From Pseudomonadota bacterium (lineage in GTDB: Bacteria > Myxococcota_A > Polyangia > Polyangiales > JAKSBK01), in assembly GCA_022361155.1 (NCBI GenBank), contig JAKSBK010000034.1, positions 1-47,321 on the forward strand: 47,321 nucleotides of DNA, in the 5' to 3' direction. Of this stretch, positions 2,922-47,050 are shown one piece after another. The notes beneath the pieces are model-generated. The model ran no database searches. It saw only the letters and a list, made by a program, of their open reading frames with translations, and was not told the DNA's origin. Every line of letters begins with the position of its first letter. The first letter of the stretch is position 1. The position numbers and the translations under genes are program-made.

Positions 2922-3425
2922 GACGTACGCGCGTGCCCACCCCAGCCTGGAGCTTCCGTTTCCGGCTATGCGCTGCACAGCATTGAAATGAACCGCGGTC
3001 TTCGTCGGTGCGCCTTGCCAGCGACCGCCAGCCCTCGGCGCCAATCGATCACGATCCCTGGCAAGCGGCACCAGTACTCGCTTACGCGAGCGGGGCGGCG
3101 CAACAGCACCGCCTCGAGATGGGAAGAATCTACCCGCCAGAAGTTCCTTGCCTGAGTGGCCCGCAGGGCACGGCGGTGGTTCAACTAGCCTGCATCGGTC
3201 GCCCGTCAAAGATCGCCTCCATCTGCCAAGGGCTCGTGACAGAATAGCTGGTCGAGACCGGTCGCGCAGGGTGGATGCGATTCGCCGGCGCGCCCGGAGG
3301 AAAAGCCGCAGCAACAGTAGCGCTATTGCGAGGATTCTTGCGAGGACGAAAGCCGCGAGCGCGCCGCCCTGCACGGCCGCAACCGACCGAGTCTCCAGTT
3401 CGGTGCGCCGGGTCCTCGACCCCAG
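2922..3425. other. gene-poor gap with repeat C and an open minus frame
   Basis: No gene is confidently supported here. The gap holds repeat C (2967-3077). The minus-strand frame of the lipoprotein stays open to an ATG at 3374, whose first 30 residues would form a hydrophobic helix ending in arginines (LAAFVLARILAIALLLLRLF). This could be a small membrane protein or the broken end of one, but there is no similarity I recognise and no clear ribosome binding site. Confidence 0.4.
2967..3077 (-). repeat. dispersed repeat family 2, copy C
   Basis: The reverse complement of this stretch matches 32828-32936 almost base for base over about 110 bp, including GCTGGCGGTCGCTGGCAAGG and GGTTCATTTC followed by TGCTGTGCAGCGCATA. 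Copy C ends at GCATA, whereas the other copy continues about 30 bp into arms shared with elements A and B, so C looks truncated at that end. It lies just upstream of, and in frame with, the DsbD-N-like lipoprotein gene. Confidence 0.8.
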
Positions 3426-7546: not shown

Positions 7547-7609
7547 ACCTATTTACTCCCCGTACACCCGCGCCTACCACGGGGCAAGTCAGTGGAATCG
7601 GATTGGGCC

Positions 7610-7770
7610 TAAGGGCCCGCGGGAGAATAGCTCGGGTGTTTCGGTGAGGACTGGGCGCCGCTGGCGAGGCGCGACGACGAGGAGTATCGGGGATACTTCG
7701 AGGAGGAGCAACATAGCCAGCGGTGGTCAGAACCGGCGAAATGGATGAGTTATTCTTCCGCGGGCCCTAA
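7610..7770 (+). mobile_element. MITE-like element, copy B, between carB and greA
   Basis: The body is 7613-7767 (155 bp), flanked on both sides by TAA (7610-7612 and 7768-7770), a possible 3-bp target duplication. The terminal inverted repeats read GGGCCCGCGGGAGAATAGCT on the left and, reverse-complemented, GGGCCCGCGGAAGAATAACT on the right. Inside are arms CGCCGCTGGCGAGGCGC and GCCAGCGGTGG around a centre with GTATCGGGGATAC. It is the inverted counterpart of element A (5-164). The TAG stop of carB straddles its right edge. No open frame in it looks coding. Confidence 0.78.
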
Positions 7771-32827: not shown

Positions 32828-32967
32828 CACTAGTACCGCTTGCCAGGGATGTGATCGATTGGCGTCGAGGGCTGGCGGTCGCTGGCAAGGCGCACCGACG
32901 ATGACTGCGGTTCATTTCGATGCTGTGCAGCGCATATTCGAGGAGGTGCAACACCGCCAGCGGCGGG
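32828..32967 (+). repeat. dispersed repeat family 2, copy D
   Basis: Positions 32828-32936 match the reverse complement of 2967-3077. The extension to 32967 (TTCGAGGAGGTGCAACACCG, then CCAGCGGCGGG) matches the corresponding part of element B (TTCGAGGAGGAGCAACATAG, then CCAGCGGTGG), so copies C/D and elements A/B share the inner arms CGCTGGC...GCCAGCGG. It lies upstream of the promoter of the glt-like operon and of the TonB receptor gene. Confidence 0.75.
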
Positions 32968-33282
32968 CACGAGTTGTCTCGCTTGAAGAGCGTTCATCGC
33001 CCGGGATTGCTGGGGGCCGGCTTTGGTGAATGTGCTGCTCTTGCGTACAGGGCGGCTGCCGGGCTCCGCGTCTCCGTAGCGGACAAGCAAGTCGTGCAGC
33101 CAATCATCAAAAGTCCTAGCTGTGAGGGAAGAACCACTCGTGATGCACGAGACGACCCTCTCGAAGTCGGAGCGCGTGTATGCAAGGGAGGCAGGCGCCG
33201 AATGCAATAGGATTGACTCGAATCGCTCATTGTATTAACCCCGGAGCGGCCTTGGCACGACAGACGGGGAGAAGGCGTCCCG
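32968..33282. other. intergenic stretch without a supported gene
   Basis: Between repeat D and the 18-bp tandem repeats. A minus-strand open frame (to an ATG at 33207) reads SDFERVVSCITSG and FDDWLHDLLVRYGDAEPG, which looks protein-like but runs straight into repeat D and has no clear ribosome binding site. It may be a gene remnant; I do not recognise the family. Confidence 0.35.
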
Positions 33283-33358
33283 AGTCGTGGAACGCACAAG
33301 ACCCGAGTCGTGGAACGCACAAGAGTCGTGGAACGCACAAGAGTCGTGGAGCGCATGG
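33283..33358 (+). repeat. 18-bp tandem repeats upstream of the TonB receptor
   Basis: AGTCGTGGAACGCACAAG occurs at 33283-33300, 33306-33323 and 33324-33341, with a diverged fourth copy (AGTCGTGGAGCGCATGG) at 33342-33358. A 5-base insert separates copies 1 and 2. The array ends 4 bp before the receptor's ATG, so it forms the 5' leader. It could be a binding-site array, an mRNA leader element or a simple minisatellite. Confidence 0.8.
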
Positions 33359-33362
33359 GAAA

Positions 33363-35978
33363 ATGAGAAACGTCAACACGCTTACAGCGAGACGGATGCT
33401 CGGGGTGGCCGGTTGGCCGTTCATCGCAGCCTTGGGACCAGTACTCGTGATGCCCGCTTTCGCGGCGGCGCAAGAATCGCTCCCTCAAGATGCCGCGGCT
33501 GGCGATTCCGAGTCATTTGCCCCGGTGGGCTCGGCTGGGGAGCGTCCTGCTCCGCACAGCGGGTCGGAGGCTTCCGGCACGGCCGGCGCCGAGGCGGAGA
33601 CCGGGGATTCGGAGCCCCCCGAGGAGTTGCTCGTGACAGGTACGCGCTTCGGGGGCCGCACCAGCATGGATTCCGCGGTTCCTATCGACTCATTCAAGGT
33701 CGAGACGCTGCAGCAGCAGGGCAACGGGGATATGACGGAGATCCTGAAGAACATCGTGCCTTCTTTTGCCGCCACGTCCTACACCGGAGACGGCAGCGCC
33801 TTCATTCGTTCGAGCTCCCTGCGTGGCTTGCCGCCCGACGAAACGCTGGTGTTGGTTAACCGCAAACGCCGACATCGTTCCGCGCTGGTGGCCCTTGGCG
33901 GCGCCGCCATGAACCAGGGCGCTCAGGCCGTCGACGTCGGCATGATCCCGACCATTGCCCTTAGGAACATGGAAGTGTTGCGTGACGGTGCGGCGGCGCA
34001 GTACGGCTCGGACGCCATTGCCGGCGTGATCAACTACATCCTCAAGGACAATGCACAGGGCGGTGAGGTGCAGGCCCGAGTCGGGCAATGGTACGGCGGC
34101 GAGCACGAGTTTCAGATCGCTGGCAACCTGGGCCTGCCCCTGGGCCCGGAGGGCTTTCTCAGCCTCAGCGCCGAGTACACGGATTCCCAAGAACTGTCCC
34201 GAGGTGGCCAGCACGAAAAGGCGCGAGCATTGACGGACATGGGAGTGCAAGACGTGCCCGATCCCGCCCAGGTGTGGGGCCGTCCCCAAAGCCGGGGCCT
34301 GCGCTTGTTCTGGAACGGCGGGCTGCCGGTCACCGAAGACGTCAGGCCCTATTTCTTCGGCAGTTTTGCTCGCACCTACGGCAACTACGGCTTTTTCTAC
34401 CGCGAGCCCAACAAGTCCGGCGTGAGCACCCCGTTGCCGCTCGATCCGATGGATCCCTCGAAAGGCAATTTCAGCTGGTCGGACCAAGGCCAGTGGCCCG
34501 TCGGCTTCACGCCGCGCCTTGAGGGCTTCATCACCGACTTCAGCCAGGTTGCCGGTGTGGGCGGTGCCTTCCCGTTCGGTGTTCAGTACGATCTCAGCGG
34601 CGCCTTCGGCATGAACCGGATCAGCTACACGCTGAACGACAGCATCAATCCGTCCTGGGGCCCCGAGTCACCCACGGTGTTCAAGCCGGGGGACTTACAA
34701 CAAAGGGATCTCAATTTCAATGCCGACTTTTCCTATGGCATCACGGAGGGCCTCAATCTCGCCTGGGGCGCAGAATGGCGCAGCGAGGAGTTCACCATGT
34801 ACCAGGGTGACGATGCCTCCTGGCAAGCCGGAAGGTGGAGCGGCGTGAGCAGTCTCCGCGACCCGACGGCGATGATCGACCCGATGACCATGATGAGCAT
34901 GCCGTACACGGAACCGCTCATCGGAGCCAACGGCTACCAGGGCACATCCCCAGACATGGCGGGCGCATGGACTCGCACCAATTGGGCCTTCTATGCGGAC
35001 ACCGAGTGGGACGCGAATGAGGATCTGCTTCTCCAGGGTGCAGGCCGGTTCGAGAACTTCTCGAGCTTCGGCTCGACCCTGAATGGCAAGCTGGCAGCTC
35101 GCTACGCCGCCACGGACTTCTTGACGCTGCGCGGTGCCGCGTCTACGGGCTTTCGTGCTCCGACGCCGGGCCAGTCCAACCTGACAAACGTTGCAACGGT
35201 CTTCGTGCCCGGAACCATCGAGCAGCAGCTAACCGGAACCGTGCGGCCAACCGACGAGGTGGCCCGGCCGCACGGGGGCCGGCTGTTGCAGCCGGAGAAG
35301 TCGGTGAACGTGAGCTTCGGCTTCACCACCCAACCCACCGGCTCTCTACGGCTGACGGCCGACGCGTATCGCATTGCCGTCGAGGGCCGCATCGTGATGG
35401 CGGCCGACATCGATGTCTCGGCCATGGCGGCCCCTCCGGGCTCGCCGACGTATCAGAAGATCCGCTTCTACACCAATGGTCTGGATACGGTGACGACTGG
35501 CCTCGATGTGGTGCTGCTCTACGATCTTGACTGGGCAGATTTCGCCTTGGAGGGTGCCGGCGATATGAACGTCAGCCTGGCCTACAATTTCAACAGAACG
35601 AAGGTTGCCGAACAAACGAACATCGCCGTGAACGAACGGCGCAAAGCCAACATCGAGAACGCCTTGCCCAGGCACCACCTGGCTGCCACCGCAACGCAGA
35701 ATCTCGGCAAATGGTCGTTGATGCTGCGTGCCAACTACTACGGCTCGCACCAAGACGAAGATCCCCAATACTCGGTCGGTGGCGAGGTGCTCTTGGATGC
35801 CCAGCTGACCTACCGCATCGACCGCCGGTTCTCGCTAATGCTCGGCGCCAACAACATGCTCAACAACTTCCCCGATGAGGTACCCACACGTATGGCGAAC
35901 GGACTTCCCTGGCCCCGCCGCAGTCCGGTCGGCTATCACGGCGGTATGGTCTACTTGCGTGGCGTTGCGCGACTGTGA
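33363..35978 (+). CDS. TonB-dependent outer-membrane receptor
   Basis: A protein of 871 residues from the ATG at 33363. A signal peptide (MRNVNTLTARRMLGVAGWPF to about AFAAA) is followed by a low-complexity acidic stretch, a TonB-box-like EELLVTGTRF and a plug domain (residues about 85-195) with VPSFAATSYTGDGSAFIRSS, LRGLPPDETLVLVNRKRRH and VLRDGAAAQYGSDAIAGVIN. The rest is a 22-strand-type barrel with SVNVSFGF, LTYRIDRRFSLMLGANNMLN. It imports a substrate across the outer membrane using proton-motive force via TonB. The substrate is unknown; proximity to glucan genes allows, but does not show, a carbohydrate. The last residue is Leu (YLRGVARL) rather than the usual aromatic. The frame is open 61 codons further upstream through tandem repeats, rejected as leader. 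Confidence 0.92.
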   Translation: MRNVNTLTARRMLGVAGWPFIAALGPVLVMPAFAAAQESLPQDAAAGDSESFAPVGSAGERPAPHSGSEASGTAGAEAETGDSEPPEELLVTGTRFGGRTSMDSAVPIDSFKVETLQQQGNGDMTEILKNIVPSFAATSYTGDGSAFIRSSSLRGLPPDETLVLVNRKRRHRSALVALGGAAMNQGAQAVDVGMIPTIALRNMEVLRDGAAAQYGSDAIAGVINYILKDNAQGGEVQARVGQWYGGEHEFQIAGNLGLPLGPEGFLSLSAEYTDSQELSRGGQHEKARALTDMGVQDVPDPAQVWGRPQSRGLRLFWNGGLPVTEDVRPYFFGSFARTYGNYGFFYREPNKSGVSTPLPLDPMDPSKGNFSWSDQGQWPVGFTPRLEGFITDFSQVAGVGGAFPFGVQYDLSGAFGMNRISYTLNDSINPSWGPESPTVFKPGDLQQRDLNFNADFSYGITEGLNLAWGAEWRSEEFTMYQGDDASWQAGRWSGVSSLRDPTAMIDPMTMMSMPYTEPLIGANGYQGTSPDMAGAWTRTNWAFYADTEWDANEDLLLQGAGRFENFSSFGSTLNGKLAARYAATDFLTLRGAASTGFRAPTPGQSNLTNVATVFVPGTIEQQLTGTVRPTDEVARPHGGRLLQPEKSVNVSFGFTTQPTGSLRLTADAYRIAVEGRIVMAADIDVSAMAAPPGSPTYQKIRFYTNGLDTVTTGLDVVLLYDLDWADFALEGAGDMNVSLAYNFNRTKVAEQTNIAVNERRKANIENALPRHHLAATATQNLGKWSLMLRANYYGSHQDEDPQYSVGGEVLLDAQLTYRIDRRFSLMLGANNMLNNFPDEVPTRMANGLPWPRRSPVGYHGGMVYLRGVARL

Positions 35979-36071
35979 ACATGGTGCGCCTTCGTAGCTG
36001 GGAAGGGACGCCCGGGAAACAGCCGTGACCGCCCAGGAGACGCGGAGGGCAGCAGCCACCCCAAACATGCA

Positions 36072-36255
36072 GGCCCGGTGGTCGGGATGTTTTGCGGGGG
36101 CGCAGCGCGCGCCGACCCGCATGCCAGTTCGCTCGCCGGGTTGGCGCGCGCGTCGAGGCCGGCGTGCGCGCGCCTAGGCTCAGCTCGTGGGCTTGACTAC
36201 CGCGCGCACATCGTGCACGTCGGCCGACCCCGCAAAACGTCCCGACCACCGGGCC
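36072..36255. mobile_element. 184-bp inverted-repeat module 1
   Basis: The two ends, 36072-36099 and 36228-36255, are 28-bp inverted repeats with one mismatch. The outer end starts GGCCCGGTGGTCGGGATGTT. The 128 bp between are very GC-rich with many GCGC runs and no plausible coding frame. As RNA or single-stranded DNA it would fold into a long stem. No clear target duplication is visible. It is followed 19 bp later by the 51-bp repeat at 36275 and then by glgE. Confidence 0.75.
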
Positions 36256-36274
36256 GACCCGGCAGCGGTACATT

Positions 36275-36325
36275 CCGCTCTTTGCCGTTCACTCCAAAAA
36301 CACCTACAAAAGTGCTGAACTCGAG
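36275..36325 (+). repeat. 51-bp conserved repeat, copy 1
   Basis: This 51-bp stretch (beginning CCGCTCTTTGCCGTTCACTC, ending GTGCTGAACTCGAG) is the reverse complement of 46800-46850 with one mismatch. It forms most of the glgE 5' leader, ending 14 bp before the ATG. A weak promoter-like pair (TTGCCG, 17 bp, TACAAA) lies inside, so it might supply the promoter of glgE; this is a guess. Confidence 0.85.
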
Positions 36326-36339
36326 ACTAGAGAATCAGC

Positions 36340-38310
36340 ATGCTTCCTCCCGATGTAGTGAACCGGGTCTGGATCGAGGGCGTTCGGCCGGAGATCGATG
36401 GCGGCCGTTGGCCGGTCAAGGCCATTCTTGGCGATCGGTTCGCGGTCCAGGCCGACTTGGTGGCGGATGGCCACGACGCCGTGGCAGGCGTGGTGCTGTA
36501 TCGGTTTGGGCAGGGCGGGAGCTGGAGCGAGACGCCCCTTGATCTCCTGGTGAACGACCGCTTCGAAGCCAGCTTCGACCTCACGGAGCTCGGCCTGTGG
36601 GAGTACACGCTCGAGGCCTGGGTCGACGACTTTGCAACTTGGCGCGCTCGCCTGCAGAAGCGGATCCAGGCAAAGCAGGAAGTAGCGCTCGAGCTGCTCG
36701 TCGGGGCAGACTTGGTAGAACAAGCGGCCGAACGCGCTTGGAGAAAACACGAGGGGGATCACGCCCTGCTCGAGCGCTTCGCCCTGGATTTGCGCGATCC
36801 CGACACCACAACGGCCAAACAGGCTGCGCTGGGCATCGGTCTCTCCGACCTGATGGCTGCCTATCCGGACCGCAGTCGTGGTACGCGCTACGACCATGTC
36901 CTGCAGGTACGCGCCGAGCGGACCAAGGCGCGATTCTCGGCCTGGTACGAGCTCTTTCCACGCTCGACCGGCAGCAACGGCAAGCACGGCTCTTTTGCGG
37001 ATGTCGAGGCCGTGCTGCCCTACGTGGCCTCCATGGGCTTTGACGTCCTGTACCTGCCACCCATTCATCCCATCGGCAGGAGCTACCGCAAAGGCAGGAA
37101 CAACGCTCTCGAAGCCCAGCCTGAAGACCCCGGCAGTCCATGGGCCATAGGCTCCTCCCAGGGCGGCCACAAAGCGATCCACCCGGAGCTCGGAACCCCG
37201 ACCGATTTTCGCCATCTAGTGTCTGCGGCCCGCGAACATGATTTGGAGGTGGCCATGGACATTGCGTTTCAAGCTTCGCCGGACCACCCCTACGTGAAGG
37301 AGCATCCCGAATGGTTCAAACAGCGTCCGGATGGCACGATTCAGTATGCCGAGAACCCGCCCAAGAAGTACCAGGACATCTATCCTTTCGATTTCGGCTC
37401 CAGAGATTGGTGGCCACTATGGCAAGAGCTTTATAGCATTCTTATCTATTGGATCGAACAGGGTATCCGGATCTTCCGTGTCGACAATCCACATACCAAG
37501 TCGCTTCCCTTCTGGGCCTGGTGCCTGTCCGAAATCTACAAGCAACATCCGGATACGGTGTTTCTTGCCGAGGCCTTTACTCGACCCAAGCTCATGGCCG
37601 CGCTCGCCAAGGCAGGGTTCTCTCAATCGTATACGTACTTTACCTGGCGAAACACCCGTTGGGAAATTCAACAGTACCTCGAAGAGCTCACAACCACGCA
37701 GCTGGCCAGCTACTTTCGACCTAACTTTTGGCCAAACACGCCAGATATTCTGCCGGAGCACCTTCAGCACGGTGGCCGGCCGGCCTTCATCGCTCGCTTC
37801 GTCCTAGCCGCTACACTCGCAAGCAACTACGGTATCTACGGACCCGCATTCGAGCTCATGGAGCACGTAGCCCGGCCTGGATCCGAGGAATATCTCGATA
37901 ACGAGAAGTACGAAATTAGGTCATGGAACCTACGCGAACCGAAAAGCCTGCGCTCGATCATAACCCGCATCAATCAAACGCGCAAATCCCAGCCAGCCTT
38001 GCAGGATAATCGCAATCTACGTTTTCACCCCACGGACAACAACCAGCTCCTATGCTTCAGCAAGCATAGCGACGACTGCGAGAGTCGGGTTCTAATCGTA
38101 GTCAACTTGGATTATCGCTACAAGCAATCAGGATGGGTTGAGCTGGACCCCAAGCTGCTTGGTGTTGAAGAAGACAGCGCTTACGAGGTCCACGACGTCC
38201 TCACGGGTGCGCGCTACCCTTGGCGTGGCGGGCGCAACTATGTGGAGCTGGACCCGCAGCGCGTCCCGGCCCACCTTTTCATCGTGCAGCAACCGGCTAC
38301 AAGCGCGTGA
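36340..38310 (+). CDS. glgE: alpha-1,4-glucan:maltose-1-phosphate maltosyltransferase GlgE
   Basis: A 656-residue protein of typical GlgE length. The enzyme transfers maltosyl units from alpha-maltose-1-phosphate onto alpha-1,4-glucan chains. An N-terminal beta-sandwich and helical insertion (residues 1-190) precede a GH13 (GH13_3) catalytic barrel. Motifs: FSAWYELFPRS, YLPPIHPIG, YRKGRNN, the nucleophile Asp382 in RIFRVDNPHTK, acid/base Glu411 in FLAEAFTRPK and Asp469 in NTPDILPEHLQHGG. The C-terminal beta domain ends near 650. It is followed after 65 bp by the TreS-maltokinase gene that produces its substrate. The ATG at 36340 is the first Met in frame with family-like sequence. Confidence 0.95.
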   Translation: MLPPDVVNRVWIEGVRPEIDGGRWPVKAILGDRFAVQADLVADGHDAVAGVVLYRFGQGGSWSETPLDLLVNDRFEASFDLTELGLWEYTLEAWVDDFATWRARLQKRIQAKQEVALELLVGADLVEQAAERAWRKHEGDHALLERFALDLRDPDTTTAKQAALGIGLSDLMAAYPDRSRGTRYDHVLQVRAERTKARFSAWYELFPRSTGSNGKHGSFADVEAVLPYVASMGFDVLYLPPIHPIGRSYRKGRNNALEAQPEDPGSPWAIGSSQGGHKAIHPELGTPTDFRHLVSAAREHDLEVAMDIAFQASPDHPYVKEHPEWFKQRPDGTIQYAENPPKKYQDIYPFDFGSRDWWPLWQELYSILIYWIEQGIRIFRVDNPHTKSLPFWAWCLSEIYKQHPDTVFLAEAFTRPKLMAALAKAGFSQSYTYFTWRNTRWEIQQYLEELTTTQLASYFRPNFWPNTPDILPEHLQHGGRPAFIARFVLAATLASNYGIYGPAFELMEHVARPGSEEYLDNEKYEIRSWNLREPKSLRSIITRINQTRKSQPALQDNRNLRFHPTDNNQLLCFSKHSDDCESRVLIVVNLDYRYKQSGWVELDPKLLGVEEDSAYEVHDVLTGARYPWRGGRNYVELDPQRVPAHLFIVQQPATSA

Positions 38311-44309: not shown

Positions 44310-46718
44310 ATGAAGGCTTCGTGGATCGCAATCGTCTGGCCATTGCTGTTAGCAGCCGGCTGCGGGACGCGCTCCACACCCAGCGGCTCGCTGCCAGCGC
44401 GCTCGAACGCGACTCGGCCGCCGGCACCCGTGCGATCCGCGCCATCTGCCGTTCATGCGAGCTCGTCAAGCAGGGCAACGCCTCGGCCGCCCGAAGTCCC
44501 GCTGAACACAGGGCGGGACACCGATCCAAACCTATGGTTGGAGGAAATCACCGGCCAAAAAGCGCTGGCATGGGTGCGGACACACAACGAGCGTTCGCAA
44601 GCTGAGCTCGAGGCCGAGCCCGGCTTCGAGCCCTTGCGCAAGCGCGTACTCGCCATCTTGGACTCGTCGGACAAGATCCCGTGGGTCAGGAAACGGGGAC
44701 GCCACTACTACAACTTCTGGCGTGATGCGGACCACCCCAAGGGGCTGTGGCGGCGCGTTTCAAGCCTTCGGGCGTATCGAAAGGGCAAGCCCAGGTGGCA
44801 GACCGTGCTCGACGTGGACGCGCTCGCCGACAAGGAAGGGGAGTCTTGGGTCTGGAAGGGCGCCGTGTGCCTCTACCCCAAACGCACCCGCTGCCTCGTA
44901 CGCCTGTCGCGAGGTGGGGCAGACGCCACCGTTGTCCGGGAGTTCGACACCATCCGCAGAGCGTTCGTGAAGAACGGCTTCTATTTGCCCGAGGCCAAGT
45001 CCCACGTAGCCTGGCGGGATCGCAACACGCTTTACGTGGGAACGGACTTCGGTCCGGGCTCGATGACCGACTCGGGCTATCCACGGCAGGTCAAGCTCTG
45101 GAAACGCGGAACGCCGCTGAGCGCGGCCAAGCCCATCTTCGAGGGGAAGCGTAGCGACGTGACCGTGGGAGCGTACCGATCTTGGGACCATGGCCACGTG
45201 CGCGACTTCGTGTACCGCAACGTGACCTTCTACAGCTCACAGCATTTCCTGCTCGAGCAAGATGGGCTCGTACGCATCGAAGTTCCGGACTCGGCCATGA
45301 TCGACACCTGGGATGATCAGCTGCTGGTGACTCTGCGCGACGACTGGAAGCTCGAGGACCGGACGTGGTCCAAGGGCTCGCTGCTCGCGACCAACCTTTC
45401 GGCTTTCCTGGACGGGCGACGGGGGTTCACAGCCTTGTTCACGCCGGAACCAACCAAGTCGCTGGAGGATGTCACACGGCTCAAGACAGCCCTGATCGTC
45501 AACGAGCTGGAGCACGTCAAAAGCCGGCTCTGGATCTGGACGCTGAAAGGCAAGCGCTGGCGGCGGCGCCCACTCGAAGGGTTGGGTCTGGGCACGTTTT
45601 CGGCCGGTGCCGTCGAAGCGAACGAGTCCGATGCGTACTGGTTTACCGCCACGGACTTCACGCAGCCTTCGACGCTGTCGCACGCGACCTTGGGCAAGCG
45701 CCGCAGGCAGCTCAAGCAGACTCCTGCGTTCTTTGACGCTTCCGGCTTGGAGGTCTCGCAACATTTCGCCACCTCGGCGGATGGCACGCAGGTGCCCTAT
45801 TTCCAGGTCTCGAAGCGAGACCTCAGGCTCGATGGCAATAACCCGACGCTGCTCTACGGTTACGGTGGTTTCGAAATCAGCCTCAAGCCTCGCTATCGAG
45901 CGGTTGCGGGAGCGGCTTGGCTGGAACATGGCGGGGTGTACGTGCAGGCAAACATCCGTGGCGGCGGCGAATACGGTCCGAGCTGGCACCAGGCGGCACT
46001 CAAGAGCAAGCGCCAGCGTGCCTACGACGATTTCGCGGCAGTCGCACAGGACTTGATACGACGCAAAGTGACTCGTCCCGAGCGTCTGGGTATTCAAGGC
46101 GGATCCAACGGCGGCCTGCTGATGGGTGTGATGTTGACCCAGCGCCCGGAGCTCTTTGGCGCCATCGTGTGCCGAGTGCCGCTGCTCGACATGCGTCGCT
46201 ACTCCGTCCTGCTTGCCGGCGCATCTTGGGTCGGCGAGTACGGCGATCCCAGCGATCCCGAGCAATGGGCGTGGATTTCGAAGTACTCGCCCTACCAGAA
46301 CCTCAAGATGCAAACCAACTACCCGCCCGCGCTCTTCATGACCTCGACGCGCGACGACCGCGTGCATCCCGGACACGCTCGCAAGATGGTCGCGCGCATG
46401 GACCGAATGGGCTACAGGCCGCTGTACTACGAGAACATCGAGGGTGGCCACGGCGGCGCCGCCAACAACGAGCAGCGCGCACACATGGCGGCGCTGGCGT
46501 ACGTGTTCCTGGCCAAGCGGCTGGGCCTGGAACTTCGAACCCCGGAACCCGGAACCCGGGGTCCCATGTCCGAACCCGACATCCGTCTTCGCAATCCGCA
46601 ATCCGCAATCGCAATCGGACCTCGGCCTCCGCATCGGACCTCGGCCCCCGCATCGGGCTCCAATGCCGATCACTTTAGTTCCGAAGAGATCGGAGTCATT
46701 GGGAAAAGCCGAAAATAG
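44310..46718 (+). CDS. S9A prolyl oligopeptidase family lipoprotein
   Basis: An 802-residue protein. Lipoprotein signal MKASWIAIVWPLLLAAGCGT (Cys18), a Ser/Pro-rich linker to about 65, then a beta-propeller (about 100-480) and an alpha/beta hydrolase domain (about 490-730). Catalytic triad: Ser599 in GIQGGSNGGLLMG, Asp682/683 in STRDDRVHPGHA and His714 in IEGGHGGAANN. It cleaves peptides after proline or related residues, probably outside the cytoplasm. The hydrolase fold ends at about AKRLGLEL (residue 740); the remaining ~60 residues are encoded by tandem-repeat DNA and look like accidental readthrough into a minisatellite. Its role next to glucan genes is unclear. Confidence 0.9.
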   Translation: MKASWIAIVWPLLLAAGCGTRSTPSGSLPARSNATRPPAPVRSAPSAVHASSSSRATPRPPEVPLNTGRDTDPNLWLEEITGQKALAWVRTHNERSQAELEAEPGFEPLRKRVLAILDSSDKIPWVRKRGRHYYNFWRDADHPKGLWRRVSSLRAYRKGKPRWQTVLDVDALADKEGESWVWKGAVCLYPKRTRCLVRLSRGGADATVVREFDTIRRAFVKNGFYLPEAKSHVAWRDRNTLYVGTDFGPGSMTDSGYPRQVKLWKRGTPLSAAKPIFEGKRSDVTVGAYRSWDHGHVRDFVYRNVTFYSSQHFLLEQDGLVRIEVPDSAMIDTWDDQLLVTLRDDWKLEDRTWSKGSLLATNLSAFLDGRRGFTALFTPEPTKSLEDVTRLKTALIVNELEHVKSRLWIWTLKGKRWRRRPLEGLGLGTFSAGAVEANESDAYWFTATDFTQPSTLSHATLGKRRRQLKQTPAFFDASGLEVSQHFATSADGTQVPYFQVSKRDLRLDGNNPTLLYGYGGFEISLKPRYRAVAGAAWLEHGGVYVQANIRGGGEYGPSWHQAALKSKRQRAYDDFAAVAQDLIRRKVTRPERLGIQGGSNGGLLMGVMLTQRPELFGAIVCRVPLLDMRRYSVLLAGASWVGEYGDPSDPEQWAWISKYSPYQNLKMQTNYPPALFMTSTRDDRVHPGHARKMVARMDRMGYRPLYYENIEGGHGGAANNEQRAHMAALAYVFLAKRLGLELRTPEPGTRGPMSEPDIRLRNPQSAIAIGPRPPHRTSAPASGSNADHFSSEEIGVIGKSRK
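46538..46655. repeat. cluster of short tandem repeats in the 3' end of the peptidase gene
   Basis: Three adjacent arrays: CCCGGAA units at 46541-46560; CGCAATC units at about 46590-46616; and a 19-bp unit, GACCTCGGCCTCCGCATCG at 46618-46636, repeated with one change at 46637-46655. They encode the unusual C-terminal tail of the S9A peptidase. Confidence 0.8.
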
Positions 46719-46799
46719 CTGCGAAAAGCGCTCCATTGATCAGCATTGGTATCGGGCTCCGTATCGGGGTCGGTCCCGCGATAGCACCCCAAGACTCGG

Positions 46800-46850
46800 C
46801 TCGAGTTCAGCACTTTCGTAGGTGTTTTTGGAGTGAACGGCAAAGAGCGG
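46800..46850 (-). repeat. 51-bp conserved repeat, copy 2
   Basis: Inverted copy of 36275-36325, 50 of 51 bases identical; the change is A to G in the CTAC(A/G)AAAG segment. It lies 81 bp after the peptidase stop and is followed after 22 bp by an inverted-repeat module, the mirror image of the arrangement at 36072-36325. Confidence 0.85.
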
Positions 46851-46872
46851 AGATGGGTAGGGATGACCTGGC

Positions 46873-47050
46873 GTCGTCCGGGCGGGGGGTCTCGTGCTCG
46901 GGCCCGGCGGTACCCCCGGACTCGCGCCCTGTGCCGGAGGCACACCGGGGGGCCGGCTCGGAGATGCTCGCTGCACGATAGCGTCCGTCAGCGCTCAAAC
47001 ATCAGGACCCCCCGCCGGTCCCTGCGCGCGAGACCCCCCGCCCGGACGAC
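46873..47050. mobile_element. 178-bp inverted-repeat module 2
   Basis: The ends 46873-46894 and 47029-47050 are perfect 22-bp inverted repeats (outer end GTCGTCCGGGCGGGGGGTCT). The interior has secondary short inverted runs (GGTACCCCCGG, GCCGGAGGCACACCGG) and no plausible gene. Size and position relative to the 51-bp repeat mirror module 1, but the arm sequences are different. Confidence 0.75.

Follow-up and report, generated by a model that had tools for sequence, protein, structure and literature searches.

The window analyzed here (contig C34, complete at 47,321 bp) contains two copies of a short sequence tag. Each lies beside a large hairpin, and the arms of the two hairpins are unrelated in sequence. 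This raises the question of what kind of element joins a constant tag to a hairpin that changes. We consider it likely that the tag is the end of an IS701-type MITE, that the hairpins are subterminal modules, and that the second hairpin (module 2) represents a lineage-restricted family. The source genome comprises 5.41 Mb in 608 contigs; the relatives searched included no other genome from its family. Below, C-numbers denote its contigs, G-numbers other genomes of the same order, and L-numbers sequence stretches.

Two tag and hairpin loci

The first locus is flanked by a TonB-dependent receptor gene (33180-35978) and by glgE (start at 36340). Its hairpin, module 1 (36072-36255, 184 bp), has outer arms of 28 to 31 bp (36072-36102 and 36225-36255; 31 nt, 94% complementary, spaced 122 nt) that close two inner hairpins in a three-way junction. 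Upstream on the forward strand, the left part of the element (35999-36071) continues the repeat, and positions 35999-36073 match the copy on C443 at 87% and also match C436. An 18-bp spacer (36256-36273, forward), similar in C98, C503, C18, C392, and C210, leads to tag copy 1 (36274-36330, forward), the putative end region of a non-autonomous IS701-type element, which ends in CTCGAG (36320-36325), A, and CTAG (36327-36330). As seen at 36327-36340, this transposon end stops 9 bp short of the glgE start codon, so that the element of tag copy 1 forms the sequence directly upstream of the gene group led by glgE.

The second locus, close to the contig end, follows a prolyl-oligopeptidase gene (44310-46718). 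Tag copy 2 (46795-46851, reverse strand; end sequence CTCGG-CTCGAG) is inverted relative to copy 1, and the two are 95% identical over 57 nt. A 21-bp spacer (46852-46872, reverse) forms a chimeric junction: from here inward, the sequence resembles module-2 copies and not module-1 copies. Module 2 (46873-47050, forward, 178 bp) has arms at 46873-46902 and 47021-47050 (30 nt, 90% complementary, spaced 118 nt) and the conserved internal-loop motifs GTGCTCGG / CCTGCGCGC, GGACTCGCGC, and CTCAAACA(T)CAGGACCCCCC. The modules thus start 18 bp (module 1) and 21 bp (module 2) from the inner end of the tag, in the same orientation, and both fold far better than dinucleotide shuffles (z = -9.2 for module 1 and -6.6 for module 2; 0 of 200 shuffles as good in either case). 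The layout described by the first-pass annotation, two tag copies each with a hairpin of about 180 bp and unrelated arms, is therefore present.

The tag as a transposon end

The tag terminus reads CTAG-N-CTCGAG. A pattern search of the genome returned 21 perfect ends of this kind, many of them paired, inverted, and 162 to 163 bp apart. These pairs delimit palindromic, MITE-like 163-bp elements, about 10 full-length and about 10 partial, which share the end CTAG-N-CTCGAG-TTCAGCACTTTT with the tag. The elements are short and non-coding, occur in multiple copies, and have the TIRs of a known transposase, as MITEs do. Their interior segment (positions 58 to 107) matches many genome places and is possibly related to a dispersed repeat, TCCTCGTCGTCGCGCCTTGCCAGCG..., found in the window at 21-165 and 7609-7753 and also at 91-132, 2967-3052, and 32851-32936; its better copies are 93 to 95% alike.

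The sole IS701-family transposase gene found in the genome lies in an element at C60:123-2297, which is likewise bounded by CTAG-N-CTCGAG ends. The transposase exceeds the cut-off of the NCBIfam IS701 model NF049999 (271 bits; cut-off, 170) and that of Pfam DDE_5 (92.7; cut-off, 27). The element has CTAGTCTCGAGTTTGGCGGTTTTGGGT at one end and an inverted copy at the other (C60:123 and C60:2297; 25 of 27 positions identical), and CTAG flanks it on both sides. IS701-family insertions generate a 4-bp target duplication, YTAR; since CTAG is palindromic, such a duplication is indistinguishable here from a fixed end. An alternative right end is possible near 2039 (CTCGAG-TTG-CTAG at about 2027-2039), and the hairpin on the right could belong to a neighboring element. 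Between the transposase gene and that hairpin lies a gene for a SEC-C/SWIM-motif protein (TIGR04102, above cut-off; L115 1711-2004), either a passenger or a host gene. Plasmids matched the C60 element only over stretches of about 55 bases, in part of the SEC-C gene.

The C60 ends have the sequence TTTGGCGGTTTTGGGT and resemble those of the MITEs at C162 and C167, whereas the tag reads TTCAGCACTTTT, as do the MITEs at C443, C11, and C454; at least two end types have therefore been active. One point counts against the favored explanation, namely that the sole IS701 gene found has TTTGGCGG ends and the tag has TTCAGCAC ends, from which it follows that the tag's own transposase is absent from the assembly. 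In the same order, the nearest IS701 relative is in G115 (transposase 50 to 51% identical; 299 bits to NF049999), and its element has CTAG-N-CTCG ends; relatives in G011 and G177 have ends of the GACTCGGG/GACTCGCC type. The tag itself was found in none of 85k GTDB genomes, queried by exact pattern in a set that possibly excludes the source genome, and in none of 56 same-order genomes.

Ends shared with MITEs and with IS701 elements thus identify the tag as a transposon end. Judged by its sequence, the tag would be the terminal sequence of an IS701-type MITE and the short copies MITEs, which is a known kind of thing; the first-pass annotation had recognized no matching element class.

Hairpin modules, covariation, and template switching

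Tag matches over at least 38 bp occur at nine places in the genome. Module 1 adjoins the tag at six of them (C34 copy 1, C98, C503, C18, C392, and C210), complete in two and truncated in four. At C435 the tag is interrupted by the contig end, at C521 its outer part alone is kept, and module 2 stands beside it only at C34 copy 2. The proposal that the same tag accompanies each hairpin consequently holds for the two window copies and fails elsewhere in the genome, where the tag accompanies a complete or truncated module 1 and where module 2 is mostly tagless. Tag copies without an adjacent inverted-repeat module, which had been named as grounds for refuting the proposal, were found in part: C18, C392, C210, and C521 have no complete module.

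Module-1 copies, some truncated, are present at C98, C503, C443, C436, C18, C392, and C210. The 56 same-order genomes gave only short, weak, GC-rich matches, and on this comparison module 1 appears private to the source genome. The module-1/tag element has a clear tag end and a left end that is not delimited; C475 may be a compact two-ended relative. A further module-1 copy (C163:625-671; L042 about 612-671) has its hairpin deleted to the arm tips (GGCCCGG-CCACCGGGCC), as expected for palindrome deletion.

In the source genome, module 2 recurs in full or in part at least eight more times, mostly without the tag. At C60, hairpins of this type stand on either side of the transposase gene, each about 40 bp in from the element's end and with its 5' arm outward. 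A search with the C60 end revealed the module-2 hairpin in G034, G043, and G015, three genomes that belong to a second family of the order. Outward-facing inverted pairs occur at C60 and at G015 L203 and L204, with another in G015 probably lying across the L234/L240 contig join (83-bp overlap). In G043, module 2 adjoins an ISAs1-family gene and not IS701, which counts against the favored explanation. A model built from the aligned copies, R1, detected additional ones when applied to about 600 kb of G015 and G043 contigs picked regardless of hairpin; the window module scores 164 bits to R1 but is itself among its building sequences. A match in G176 (L193) was dropped as partial and without an R1 match.

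With module 2 beside the tag seen only once, the window junction could reflect a misjoined contig or chance adjacency. Copy 2 lies 271 bp from the contig end in a 608-contig draft in which repeats are prone to misassembly, a circumstance that weighs against the favored explanation. Yet at C60 a hairpin of this family also stands next to an IS701-type end, a different one, so that this kind of junction is not odd, and we regard an artifact as improbable. Exchange of hairpins beside a fixed tag, as suggested by the first-pass annotation, is accordingly supported, but by a single chimera, window copy 2.

The stems of the 12 aligned module-2 copies differ, but the copies have GTGCTCGG, GGACTCG, CTCA(A/G)ACA, CCTGCGCGC, and related motifs in common, apart from deviations in individual copies. 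Across these 12 copies from four genomes, RNAalifold predicts 39 pairs, of which 19 show compensatory changes on both sides. The covariation score is 0.289 compared to 0.082 for shuffled alignments; none of 500 shuffles reaches the observed value, and slid controls are far lower. Realignment to the model with two newly found copies left this picture unchanged, but it is fitted to the structure and includes two reverse-strand duplicates, making the 12-copy count the cleaner one. Compensatory arm change, anticipated by the first-pass annotation, is thus present far above controls in module 2; module 1 shows one paired difference, between C34 (T-A) and C98 (C-G). Searches with Rfam at the gathering threshold (window) and at E<=5 (seven loci) gave no match at the hairpins, and no viral contig contained the module-2 motif. 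On this sequence comparison, module 2 appears to be a new, lineage-restricted, transposon-associated hairpin family, uncatalogued so far, that recurs in related soil bacteria with changing stems and a constant core.

Two further sets of hairpins were seen in G015. Near-perfect hairpins with stems of about 26 to 37 bp (L275 1602-1713 and 1854-1997; L232 4262-4389) are weak matches of the module-2 model and possibly another such family; the two on L275 have unrelated stems and a shared but inverted core. Compact hairpins with different stems (L203 4654-4720, L228 10497-10561, and L240 8366-8428) have a near-constant loop, CGAGCACGGACCCGC(C/T)GGACCGCGCGCAGG, and a core inverted relative to module 2. 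An origin of the arms as copies of host coding sequence was dropped, the second L275 hairpin lying beside and not in a long reading frame. Integron attC sites, whose ends follow GTTRRRY/RYYYAAC, were dropped as well, the ends here being unlike that consensus.

How pairing is kept while sequence changes can be read from individual copies. In C103, the 3' arm block CCTGCGCGC is now the exact complement of the 5' arm; in C199 the direction is opposite, the 5' arm now complementing the 3' arm. Copying of several bases from arm to arm is known from template switching during replication (PMC8794818), and such whole-arm copying explains pairing that persists as sequence changes. Hence, the covariation of module 2 agrees with the suggested selection for structure or a structured RNA but by itself proves neither, because template switching may give much of the pairing, as suggested by the two whole-arm conversions and by the absence of G-T wobbles from about 310 outer-stem positions. 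In another reading, the hairpins are functionless DNA palindromes, made and renewed by template switching and hitch-hiking in decaying MITEs. Arm conversions in both directions, the truncations, the internal palindrome deletion at C163:625-671, and many degenerate copies are consistent with such decay. Mutation alone, however, is insufficient for motifs conserved outside the stems across two families and for a fixed polarity relative to the ends, both of which template switching leaves unexplained; this reading seems doubtful to us.

The same conserved unpaired motifs and covarying stems in two families would fit an alternative in which module 2 is primarily a structured RNA, for instance within the 3' UTR of the transposase message or as a small RNA, selected for structure and merely carried by transposons. 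The outer stems of 15 copies (about 310 positions) contain 296 Watson-Crick positions, 9 A-C mismatches, 5 other mismatches, and no G-T. All nine transition mismatches are thus A-C on the modeled strand, which means G-U wobbles on the opposite strand, although several share one homologous position and hence are not independent. On the G-U strand, the hairpin lies 3' of a transposase gene in all three cases with such a neighbor: C60 left, G043 (40 bp after the ISAs1 gene), and G034 (an IS701 remnant about 0.7 kb away). Against an RNA stand the lack of an Rfam match at E<=5, the near absence of wobble intermediates, and the mirror-image copies at opposite ends of C60, which place the hairpin on opposite strands relative to the gene. 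From sequence, we judge this alternative unlikely. A more far-reaching version is improbable. In it, module 2 would form a previously undescribed class of structured elements, encoded at the termini of DDE transposons (IS701, perhaps ISAs1) in Polyangiales-like myxobacteria. The inner strand would be read to give an RNA in the transposase 3' region, or the DNA would be recognized in its folded form, and transposition would require module 2 or be regulated by it.

A proposed modular transposon end among known systems

Under the favored explanation, an IS701-type MITE end with interchangeable hairpins, the tag (the end plus about 50 bp) would be the terminus of short non-autonomous elements that IS701-family transposases inserting at CTAG move or once moved. 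Modules 1 and 2 would be interchangeable subterminal modules of these tag-type elements. The second would represent a family of hairpins of about 180 nt, with constant internal-loop motifs and freely changing complementary stems, positioned immediately inward of transposon ends with constant polarity. Window copy 2 may stem from recombination between a module-2 element and a tag-bearing element, or from insertion of the former into the latter. Switching of the replication template from one arm to the other would renew complementarity, so that the arms drift as pairs. The module-2 hairpin may work in folded DNA form at the end; alternatively, it may protect the transposase gene against transcription entering from outside.

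On this account, exchangeable parts make up transposon ends, and within one hairpin family the stems change in matched pairs around a fixed core. Covariation commonly counts as proof that an RNA structure is functional, and module 2 offers a clean natural test of how much of it comes from template switching rather than selection. Any role of the hairpin in transposition would make it a new control element of DDE transposons.

Several known systems share parts of this design. The C60 transposase belongs with the IS701 family (NF049999 group) by its model score, and same-order IS701 relatives have similar TIRs, with CTCG followed by a T-rich stretch and, in G115, the CTAG-N-CTCG ends; unlike C60, none of the relatives tested (G115, G177, and G011) has a module-2-type hairpin at its IS ends. 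Bacterial MITEs reviewed previously (Correia/NEMIS, ERIC, RPE, and YPAL/RU-2; PMC2229807) are likewise short, non-coding, and dispersed, mostly with TIRs and with long stem-loops predicted in transcripts. The elements described here differ in being G+C-rich, in ending in CTAG instead of 5'-TA-3', and in combining a modular end with an exchangeable hairpin whose internal loops are conserved while the stems change. REP/BIME sequences (GTAG-/CGTC-tagged; PMC3733652) similarly place a short conserved tag beside a palindrome of variable sequence. However, REPs are palindromes of 20 to 40 bp with a GTAG/CGTC tetranucleotide, in contrast to modules of 178 to 184 bp and a tag of about 57 bp that is a transposon end. 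Quasi-palindrome correction by template switching (PMC8794818, PMC7202029) yields the same multi-base compensatory changes from the opposite arm, which here occur within a mobile hairpin family. Finally, the bridge or seek RNAs of IS110/IS1111 (PMC11208160, PMC11187229) also represent a structured non-coding segment near an IS end, but these elements have DEDD transposases, and module 2 shows no guide loop.
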